Below, piece after piece: positions 34,514 through 36,969 of a stretch of 64,000 bases of DNA. Positions within the stretch are counted from its first letter, which is position 1. Every line of letters begins with the position of its first letter. Origin of the DNA: Martelella mediterranea (GTDB taxonomy: Bacteria > Pseudomonadota > Alphaproteobacteria > Rhizobiales > Rhizobiaceae); assembly GCA_003001975.1 (NCBI GenBank), contig PVUG01000011.1, positions 1-64,000 on the forward strand, read 5' to 3'. The notes beneath the pieces were generated by a model. The model saw nothing but the letters and a program-made list of their open reading frames with translations. It ran no database searches and was not told the DNA's origin. A program made the translations under genes and the position numbers.

Positions 34514-35242
34514 ATGATCCTTTTCCCCGCCATCGACCTGAAAGACGGCCAGTGCGTGCGCCTCAAGCTCGGCGACATGGAGCAGGCGACGATCTACAAT
34601 CCCAATCCCGCCGCTCAGGCCAAGGCCTTTGAAGACCAGGGCTTTACCCATCTGCATGTGGTGGATCTCAACGGCGCATTTGCCGGCGAAAGCGTCAACG
34701 GCGATGCGGTCGACGCGATCCTGAAGGCGACGAAAAACCCCGTTCAACTCGGCGGCGGCATCCGCTCGCTCGAACACATCGAAAACTGGCTGTCGAAGGG
34801 CCTTGCCCGCGTCATTCTCGGCACCGTTGCCGTGCGCGACCCGGAACTGGTCAAGGCCGCCTGCAAGGCGTTCCCCGGCAAGATCGCCGTCGGCATCGAC
34901 GCACGCGGCGGCAAGGTCGCCGTCGAAGGCTGGGCCGAAGCCTCCGAACTCGAGGTGGTCGAGCTTGCCAAGCGTTTCGAAGGCGCGGGCGTTGCCGCGA
35001 TCATCTACACCGATATCGACCGCGACGGCGTTTTGTCCGGCATCAACTGGGATTCGACCCTTTCGCTCGCCGCCGCCGTCAACATCCCGGTCATCGCCTC
35101 GGGCGGTCTCGCCGCGATGGACGATATCGCCCGCATGACCAGGCCCGACGCCCAGATTCTCGAAGGTGCAATCTCCGGCCGGGCGCTTTATGATGGCCGC
35201 ATCGATCCGGCCGAAGCGCTTCAGATGCTGAAAGGTCAATGA
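34514..35242 (+). CDS. hisA: Phosphoribosylformimino-5-aminoimidazole carboxamide ribotide isomerase
   Basis: A 242-residue TIM-barrel isomerase, fourth step of histidine synthesis. It starts [21 protein letters not shown] with the catalytic Asp in AIDLK. The phosphate loops VQLGGGIRS and [11 protein letters not shown] and the motif [12 protein letters not shown] are all present. It follows hisH by 34 bases. In most rhizobia hisF follows immediately, but here an oppositely oriented DUF3800 gene is between them. Confidence 0.96.
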
Positions 35243-35392
35243 AACGAATCGGTTACGATGAATATCCCTAATACCTTGTTTTAAAGGTATGAATCTTGAA
35301 ATCAGGGGTGTTTCGCGCTATATATGGTTGAAGTGGATTGGGGTTTCTCGGTCGGCGTTAGGCTTCGGAGTATTCCGGGGCCTAAAGCTTTT
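35243..35392. other. AT-rich spacer between hisA and the DUF3800 gene
   Basis: A 150-base segment noticeably richer in A and T than the flanking his genes, including ACCTTGTTTTAAAGGT (35273-35288), an inverted repeat of seven bases a side that may form a hairpin after hisA. No ORF. Likely foreign DNA brought in with the DUF3800 gene. Confidence 0.45.
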
Positions 35393-36139
35393 TTATGGCC
35401 CATAAATGGTTGAAATCGCCTTGGACACGCCTTTGGGCTTCCTGAGTTTTTGAAATTTCGGTTCGATGATTGCAAATGCCTTGTTGGGCTGCCTGGGACG
35501 GAGATATTTGAGCCCGGTGGGACGCGCAGTCAGATCGGCAATCTGCAGACCGGTCGAATTTGCTCTCTTGTCCCCGAACACGATATTGAACCCGGGAAAT
35601 GACTGACGATAGCTGTTTTGTCCGTCGGCAATCCTCCTGAACTCCAGTTCGAGATCAATGTCCTCTTTATTCCCTCTTTTCTCGAACACGAAGAAATAGC
35701 GTTTCTCTTGAATTTGCCTCTGCCTGAGAAACCGGAAAATCTCTTCGACAAGAAATCTCAATGCCAGGGAATAGGGGTTTTCCTGAAGCAGTTCCGATTT
35801 CAGTTCACGCTTGTCGATCACGACACTGAATATTCTGAACCGGGCCGTCTGGACCGCATGCGACATGTCGGCGAGAAAAGCCGTGCGGGTATCAGCATTG
35901 GTCAGAATGGAAAACGGCCCGAACTGCTTTCGTATATCCCTTTCATGGAGTACGACCATGTCATGCCCGAAATGGCGGAACTTGACGGTTTGAAAGGTCG
36001 GGACAATTTTTCGGCAATAATCGGAAATTCGGAAGCCGCAGATATTCAGAACGAAAATTGGATACGCGGCGTCAACAGAGACCAGAGAGTGGTCTCCGCT
36101 CTCGTCCGCATAGAATATGTACTCGCCATTTTCGATCAT
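35393..36139 (-). CDS. DUF3800 protein inserted in the his operon
   Basis: A 248-residue protein starting [26 protein letters not shown] is the hallmark N-terminal motif of DUF3800, whose acidic residues suggest a metal-dependent RNase H-like fold; later motifs are [19 protein letters not shown] and [14 protein letters not shown] with the conserved Asp of the family. Biochemical function is unproven. Codon use and base composition are AT-richer than the neighbouring his genes, so it looks acquired. A TTG 12 codons upstream is possible but lacks a ribosome site. It is transcribed toward hisA and away from hisF. Confidence 0.82.
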
Positions 36140-36186
36140 GGGCTCTATTAAGCTATTGCAATTTCGAAACTGCAAGAGGTTCTGTT

Positions 36187-36969
36187 TTGACTCTCAAAGC
36201 CCGTGTCATCCCCTGTCTCGACGTCAAGGACGGCCGTGTCGTCAAGGGTGTGAACTTTGTCGATCTGATCGATGCCGGCGATCCGGTGGAGGCCGCGCGT
36301 GCCTATGACGCAGCCGGCGCCGATGAACTGTGCTTTCTCGATATCACCGCCACATCCGACAATCGCGAAACGATCTTCGACGTCGTCACCCGCACGGCGG
36401 AACATTGCTTCATGCCGCTGACGGTGGGCGGCGGGGTGCGCACGGTAGCCGATATCCGCAAGCTTCTGCTCTGCGGCGCCGACAAGGTGTCGATCAATTC
36501 GGCAGCGGTGAAGAACCCGGATTTCGTCGCGGAAGCCGCCGACAAGTTCGGCAATCAGTGCATCGTCGTCGCCATTGATGCCAAGCGGCGGGCCGAAGCC
36601 CCGAAGGATGGCGAAAGCGCCTGGGAAATCTACACCCATGGCGGCCGCCAGCCGACCGGGATCGACGCGGTCGAGTTCGCACGCAAGGTCGTTGCCCGCG
36701 GTGCTGGCGAGATCCTGCTGACCTCGATGGACCGCGACGGCACCAAGGCCGGTTTCGATCTGGAGCTGACGCGCGCAATCGCCGATGCCGTTTCGGTTCC
36801 CGTTATTGCCTCCGGCGGCGTCGGCAATCTCGATCACATGGTCGAGGGCATTCGCGACGGCCATGCAACGGCCGTGCTTGCCGCCTCGATCTTCCACTTT
36901 GGTACCTATTCCATCGGCGAGACAAAACAGTATATGGCTGATCACGGCATCGCCATGCGTCTCGACTGA
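36187..36969 (+). CDS. hisF: Imidazole glycerol phosphate synthase, cyclase subunit
   Basis: A 260-residue TIM-barrel cyclase that takes ammonia from His[22 protein letters not shown] includes the catalytic Asp; the second, [13 protein letters not shown], and the loops LTVGGGVRT and [11 protein letters not shown] bind the phosphates. The start is TTG at 36187, with AAGAGG seven bases upstream; no in-frame ATG gives an equally good N-terminus. It has been separated from hisA by the DUF3800 insertion, so it needs its own promoter or read-through. It is followed closely by hisE. Confidence 0.94.

Follow-up and report, generated by a model that had tools for sequence, protein, structure and literature searches.

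Why does a DUF3800 gene lie between hisA and hisF in Martelella mediterranea, and what might it do there? A sequence-only reading of the window (the whole stretch of DNA analysed, 64,000 nucleotides of contig PVUG01000011.1) had described an oppositely oriented DUF3800 gene in lower-GC DNA separating the two genes. This is borne out by the coordinates (Table 1), by the Pfam match of the minus-strand ORF (PF12686, scoring 53.8 bits where the cut-off is 21) and by composition, with a windowed GC content of 0.47–0.51 inside the insert and mostly 0.58–0.67 on both sides. GC at third codon positions (GC3) is 0.597 in the DUF3800 gene vs. 0.738–0.822 in six flanking genes, and a whole-genome search found a single DUF3800 match, the one at hisA-hisF. 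The DNA is also foreign-looking, as that reading had it, relative to the closest species, whose hisA-hisF junctions are empty (including that of the species nearest by hisA). For the start of the gene, the ATG at 36139, which fits the copy of a congener (G003), was preferred over the TTG at 36175 given in the ORF list. No transposase, integrase or terminal repeats were seen by eye between hisA and hisF, and no reverse transcriptase or msr-msd RNA was found there; the DUF3800 gene and an RNA of ~65 nt are all that this interval was found to hold.

Table 1. Features of the hisA-hisF interval in the window
Feature	Position	Strand	Remarks
hisA	34514-35242	+	Left neighbour; stop codon is the left edge of the insert, judged from relatives' empty junctions
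Two GAATC (GANTC) sites	35246-35250, 35291-35295		Follow hisA and precede the RNA promoter
Promoter-like boxes of the RNA	TTGAAA 35296-35301, 17 nt, TATATA 35319-35324	+	9/12 consensus letters
Small structured RNA, ~65 nt	35331-35398, ends approximate	+	Directly after hisA, convergent with DUF3800
RNA hairpin 1	35336-35353	+	
Intrinsic-terminator-like stem (35358-35385), then T run	35358-35393	+	From terminator scan; inner loop in hairpin
DUF3800 gene	36139-35393	-	248 codons/aa; stop codon 35393-35395; opposite to hisA and hisF
AAGAGG, ribosome-site-like stretch	Ahead of hisF TTG, inside the insert		By eye
hisF	36187-36969	+	Right neighbour; TTG start; divergent from DUF3800

A conserved structured RNA at the end of the DUF3800 gene

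Comparison of the junctions of three congeners revealed a conserved element consisting of promoter-like boxes, two hairpins and a T run, whose RNA in the window has a 3' end that extends to the stop codon of the oppositely oriented DUF3800 gene. This RNA folds with a minimum free energy of -29.3 (z -4.41). Two covariance models were built, R2 from 23 family loci and R3 from alignment A9 alone, which holds 54 RNAs but none from the window genome (G000) or its congeners G003 and G008. R3 nevertheless recovers the RNA in the window at 61 bits (E 2.2e-16), the next best match reaching 8.6 bits. Across A9, 97.4% of cells are paired and 13 pairs include double changes, with 77 double-change cells vs. 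14.6 in shuffles (0 of 500 shuffles as high), and when partners are slid along as a control, pairing falls to 38–56%. The RNA is nearly all helix, without a variable unpaired stretch, and the G000 and G003 copies are identical at 55 of 56 bases, while the corresponding proteins differ at 32% of positions.

In 65 of 103 loci (four records being counted twice: L040/L091, L042/L092, L044/L093 and L049/L095), promoter boxes with at least 9 of 12 consensus letters are found where they would be expected, while control windows gave 2 and 0 of 102; a stricter promoter scan reported none at the window RNA. A terminator scan found two sites vs. a shuffled mean of 1.5, and the second RNA hairpin is scored as a terminator. 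Since this hairpin ends on the DUF3800 stop codon, the RNA might be seen as no more than a terminator working in both directions, its promoter having arisen by chance. This is highly improbable, as the first hairpin, which lies outside the terminator, stays paired in 98.9% of cells and includes two pairs with double changes, the promoter boxes are conserved, and a core of the RNA sequence is common across phyla.

Searches against Rfam 15 gave no match at E <= 1 in three loci and, in 17 loci, none that passed its cut-off at the RNA. The closest candidate, BjrC68 (RF02353), matches the RNA below threshold in 4 of 9 loci (E <= 10; 16–23 bits vs. 39), but was rejected as its identity: strong BjrC68 loci from 397 genomes searched differ in sequence, and 30 retrieved loci contained merely two chance-level pieces of DUF3800. 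R2 scores 35 bits at one BjrC68 place (in genome G626), which we read as a shared terminator-like hairpin.

A separate observation concerns GANTC, the CcrM motif: of 22 his-site loci (the window, L003, L004, L039–L051, L057, L089, L094, L113, L132 and L157), 21 show a cluster of such sites in the segment that separates hisA from the RNA promoter. These 22 loci hold 48 sites vs. 5.7 expected from locus background and 12.1 from composition, compared with 7 (3.5 and 8.0) in 15 other alphaproteobacterial loci and 21 (19.6 and 25.3) in 51 other loci. One idea is that cell-cycle methylation might control the RNA promoter through these sites.

Association between the RNA and DUF3800

Starting from the protein, 22 of 394 family genomes carry DUF3800 at E <= 1e-20, and the RNA lies beside the gene in 23 of 23 family loci (these 22 and G008), the loci on which R2 was trained. 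In a species-wide scan (one genome per species, 84,980 species), R2 finds the RNA beside DUF3800 in 79 of 80 loci, the best 80 of 495 relatives, five of them being records already among the 23. The same arrangement holds in 66 of 68 loci on viral contigs and in all six plasmid or phage loci tested, namely four plasmid loci (two from the same Sinorhizobium meliloti site) and two phage loci, drawn from 47 plasmid and 3 phage records. At each of the three loci that lack the RNA (L150, L285 and L286), the contig ends at most ~70 bases away from the gene or match. There is one strong RNA copy per locus, convergent with and downstream of DUF3800, and rows of the subfamily come from at least six phyla as labelled, some of them through MAG contigs alone. 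One distant search of E. coli with an Oceanisphaera copy gave no match.

Searches that started from the RNA, in which matches of at least 40 bits were counted as strong, led back to the same gene. Among the 394 family genomes, 29 match, 24 of them over 50 bits, and 22 of these 24 are exactly the DUF3800 genomes; five matches at ~30 bits have no DUF3800. Orphan RNAs occur in G164 and G225 (L194 and L197, two species of genus g70), between dut and a LysE-like gene (named by eye) and with no DUF3800 within 1.5 kb. These two loci are 96.5% identical overall but less conserved in the RNA stretch than around it, hence these copies are likely decaying relics. At the order level (397 genomes), 17 match, two of which were already known; all five strong new matches have DUF3800 (one as a 36-aa piece) and ten weak ones do not. 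At the phylum level (364 genomes, R3), 12 match including our own, and 8 of the 11 others have the same DUF3800 subfamily, convergent and adjacent. In the remaining loci of this search, L297 has a more distant DUF3800 at the same place, flanked by HsdS on one side and a PtuA-like ATPase on the other, L299 has the RNA at the 3' end of the BREX gene brxC, and L301 has it after hsdR and a YgjP-like gene, the latter two without this DUF3800.

At L299/L306, the RNA lies between brxC and genes matching the PADLOC candidates PDC-M21A and PDC-M21B, and tblastn found DUF3800 absent from 19 kb. In L308 (G865), HsdM-like, HsdS and DUF3800_VII-like proteins are found along a single stretch with the RNA, a PtuA-like ATPase and an ORF that is, by eye, HNH-like.

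The two partners also diverge together: across 71 loci, RNA and protein distances are correlated with r 0.598, the highest of 2000 permutations being 0.27.

History of the pair at the hisA-hisF junction

Within the genus, 3 of 13 genomes carry a DUF3800 homologue (G000, G003 and G008), always between hisA and hisF and in the same orientation. In seven others the two genes overlap or lie a few bases apart, one has a spacer of ~200 nt, and two (G007 and G011; L010 and L017) carry a different small ORF, membrane-protein-like by eye, which suggests that this junction tolerates inserts. The sequence-only reading had implied a lone gene newly inserted, and in this it needs revision: the insert is a gene plus an RNA, and the pair occupies the same junction in 17 of the 23 family loci (one of them, at a contig end, was placed from hisA only, and three have hisF adjacent but hisA outside the retrieved locus) and, beyond the family, in two Microvirga, a Rhodoplanes and another Rhizobiales record. 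In L046–L049, there is extra sequence between the RNA and hisA, or hisA lies outside the locus, and ORF ends there are Uma2-like by eye. That reading had further held that the gene's presence at this site throughout the lineage, with normal codon usage, would argue for ancestral residence. Half of this was found, in that the site is shared across families, but the distribution is patchy (22 of 394) and the GC3 atypical.

At the his site, DUF3800 divergence follows that of hisA (Mantel r 0.60, 1 of 5000 permutations as high; 16 loci, with L047 and L048 dropped as their hisA matches were the paralogue hisF), and without the discordant G008 the correlation rises to 0.78 (0 of 5000). On a 93-row tree, the his label needs four changes among 20 his rows, one of which, L155, lies after hisF and not between hisA and hisF. 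Independent origins of the his-site copies, as suggested by this tree, were not upheld by the AU test: a single clade of the 19 his-site rows is not rejected (p-AU 0.537), and the constrained tree is slightly better.

The discordant G008 is 5% apart from G003 in hisA and 54% in DUF3800, yet its first bases after hisA match G003. Of the his-site copies, those of Rhizobiales and Microvirga are the closest to its DUF3800, and the tree rows joined to it by the shortest paths belong to copies found at other sites (Pseudolabrys, Paracoccus and Maritimibacter). Holding G000, G003 and G008 together costs 40.6 log-likelihood units, with no formal rejection (p-AU 0.081).

Both the recurrence of one junction in several lineages and the four label changes, together with the G008 allele, could suggest a selfish element, RNA-guided or homing, with hisA-hisF as its target. 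We consider this very unlikely given the unrejected single clade, the divergence in step with hisA, the near-identity of the G000 and G003 RNAs, which offer no variable unpaired stretch that could act as a guide, and the fact that no target-site duplication was seen by eye at the junction. The history that fits best, as far as these comparisons can be read, is that of an old Rhizobiales resident of the hisA-hisF junction, often lost and probably exchanged in one species (G008); repeated arrival is a possible alternative that fits less well.

Predicted fold of the DUF3800 protein

An AlphaFold2 model from 60 sequences reached a pLDDT of 93.3 and a pTM of 0.91. Its best Foldseek match, and the sole one under 0.001, is RNase HII (1eke, E 6.3e-4), and alignment with VIA-align gave Z 11.0 for RNase HII (rmsd 3.1, 156 aligned), followed by human RNase H2 (9.8), Argonaute (9.8) and EndoV (8.3). 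The predicted fold is thus RNase HII-like, which agrees, at the level of a prediction, with the nuclease-like fold proposed in the sequence-only reading. Residues D12 E13 S14 G15 D16 H17 (DESGDH), E153, E159, K191 and D202 are invariant among the 60 sequences, and D12, E13, E153, E159 and D202 are putative catalytic residues.

Sequence searches gave one chance-level match in the PDB (E 1.1), none in NCBIfam for three proteins, and none in PADLOC for any of 60 subfamily members at E <= 0.01 or for the window protein at E <= 1. The sole PADLOC match of a DUF3800 found was that of model DUF3800_VII to the more distant protein of L297. Passages of PMC10910872 describe DUF3800 as a predicted RNase H fold whose active site is rearranged, and note an association with ncRNA, and a passage of PMC12669027 names it an accessory nuclease of some CRISPR loci; no tested function of DUF3800 was reported in the passages found.

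Defence and phage settings

Other loci bear out the earlier remark that DUF3800 is found in mobile contexts, and show it in defence settings too, from type I restriction-modification (R-M) operons to the vicinity of phage repressors. Around the 80 species-wide loci (the best 80 of 495), HSDR_N is found in 14 of 78 downstream neighbour ORFs and Methylase_S in 9 of 76 upstream ones. HsdR is matched in 15 loci. In 14 of them, hsdR comes after DUF3800 and the RNA and is encoded on the same strand as DUF3800 (in L104 it is upstream). In L101 the pair comes directly after brxC. With flanks cut to 1.5 kb, R-M/BrxC queries match 17 of these best 80 loci vs. 0 of 45 control loci of ~3 kb from family and order genomes, the queries having been taken mostly from DUF3800 loci, such that 4 of the 17 matches (L101, L103, L120 and L139) are query sources. 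A query named hsdR3, from L101, is in fact the gene beside brxC, which is PglX-like by position alone, and was left out of the tree labels. With full loci, 21 of the best 80 (of 495) match R-M or BREX queries and 59 match none, with few queries used, so that a defence setting appears common but not general.

Around 33 loci chosen from the 68 viral ones (128 neighbours), 15 of 86 ORFs match the phage repressor family phrog_4 and 14 carry Peptidase_S24, and in phage Pkon1 the DUF3800 gene is next but one to a CI-like repressor. Prophages keep lysogen-expressed genes beside the repressor.

Relation to known RNA-protein systems

DUF3800-associated RNA motifs, e.g., DUF3800-I (RF02969) and DUF3800-IX (RF02968), were reportedly described by Weinberg and colleagues in 2017. 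Both are named as Rfam families in a passage of PMC11701678, and they resemble the present case in placing a structured RNA near a DUF3800 gene (an association also noted in passages of PMC10910872). RNAs linked to DUF3800 are hence already known from these sources (PMC10910872, PMC11701678), and the present one is absent from Rfam 15 as tested. DUF3800-I spans 115 positions vs. 72–74 for the present RNA, a comparison that covers the motifs in Rfam 15 and leaves aside published ones outside it. A DUF3800-I search of 21 genomes gave no match, and neither did its control. The literature search found no paper on the present RNA.

DUF3800 domains occur in retron settings, and the effector of type VII retrons is a DUF3800, the one that PADLOC models as DUF3800_VII. 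The likeness lies in a DUF3800 effector beside a non-coding RNA, and extends to the DUF3800_VII match at L297, but the window cassette has no reverse transcriptase and its protein matches no PADLOC model. No paper joining retrons and DUF3800 was found.

The anticodon nucleases PrrC and RloC are likewise, in the passages found, nuclease genes linked to type I R-M. They are not known to have a partner RNA. Their protein family is a different one, and the window pair also lives alone at hisA-hisF.

AbiF/RCd22, a type III toxin-antitoxin system described in passages of PMC12373285, similarly joins one protein and one structured RNA and is prophage-borne, but its RNA, which holds the motif twice, is encoded upstream of the gene, and its protein is Abi_2/AbiF, not RNase H-like.

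A candidate RNA-gated nuclease module

The pairing, the conserved RNA structure, the promoter signal, the predicted fold and the recurrent placement in R-M operons and beside prophage repressors are what sequence analysis itself provides. Taken together, strict pairing, co-divergence, a helical RNA without a variable stretch, a nuclease fold and a defence setting suggest that the RNA is read by the protein, and does not act through base pairing to varied targets. We therefore propose, with about even confidence, a two-gene RNA-protein module in which a DUF3800 effector with an RNase HII-like fold would be silenced by its cognate two-hairpin RNA of ~65 nt until infection. When phages infect the cell, the protein would act as a nuclease on nucleic acid; before that, the structured RNA would bind it and hold it off, until infection upset the balance between RNA and protein and freed the nuclease. 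Such logic would resemble that of a type III toxin-antitoxin system, or of a retron effector without its reverse transcriptase, and the module is probably anti-phage.

Evidence on the direction of this relationship comes from S. meliloti plasmids of the pSymA type, where the DUF3800 gene is intact in three of nine alleles, those of strains SM11 and Rm41 among them, and broken or truncated in six, while the RNA is identical in all nine and the promoter in eight, i.e., the six alleles without an intact gene all keep the RNA, and five of them an unchanged promoter. Inhibition (an RNA antitoxin) is favoured over activation because intact RNA remains beside these broken genes; the alleles are young, so they weigh little in its favour. 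A decay of the RNA promoter beside broken genes was considered and set aside, as seven broken or orphan loci (scores of 10, 8, 7, 7, 8, 7 and 10 vs. a mean of 8.87) were too few.

An alternative, which we regard as rather unlikely but by no means negligible, is that the RNA works as a cofactor that activates DUF3800, the two forming one ribonucleoprotein enzyme that is inactive without its RNA. Strict pairing and co-divergence would equally be expected here, an RNA that is nearly all helix would suit a scaffold, and both RNase HII and the Argonaute PIWI domain are among the nearest folds. The persistence of the RNA beside the broken S. meliloti genes, and in four places without the gene, speaks against it, although those loci could be young or decaying, such that antitoxin and cofactor are not clearly separated by them.

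The logic might also be reversed, with a harmful RNA that DUF3800 removes as an RNase. This would accord with a Tn-seq screen in which, according to a passage of PMC7811196, a strain-specific DUF3800 gene was listed as essential in the same paragraph as antitoxin genes. If that gene belongs to the same subfamily, the protein would be an antidote rather than a toxin, and the listing in this passage thus speaks against the simplest toxin-antitoxin form of our proposal. However, the essential gene could be of another DUF3800 subfamily, and the six S. meliloti alleles keep the RNA without an intact gene to remove it, most with the promoter unchanged, so that we consider the reversed roles improbable.

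Four further findings count against the silenced-effector module as proposed. Described type III systems have their RNA upstream in the toxin operon, usually as tandem repeats, whereas the present RNA is downstream, convergent and outside that operon, with one strong copy and no tandem repeats. The RNA also occurs without this DUF3800 in four places, namely the two dut/LysE-like relics, the BREX operon and the place after an hsdR operon. The other two are that none of the 60 subfamily members matches PADLOC, and that 59 of the best 80 loci match none of the few R-M or BREX queries.

Significance

As a two-gene module of less than 1 kb with a sharply defined RNA partner, the pair makes the role of DUF3800 directly testable, and the R2 and R3 models offer a way to find the RNA, and hence unannotated defence loci, in other genomes. 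It is possible, though we would put it somewhat short of an even chance, that the pair represents a widespread immune module and a new class of RNA antitoxin, in which an RNase HII-like nuclease would be gated directly by an RNA of ~65 nt, and which would be portable into type I R-M systems, BREX, the immunity regions of prophages and, as in M. mediterranea, a biosynthetic operon of the Rhizobiales.
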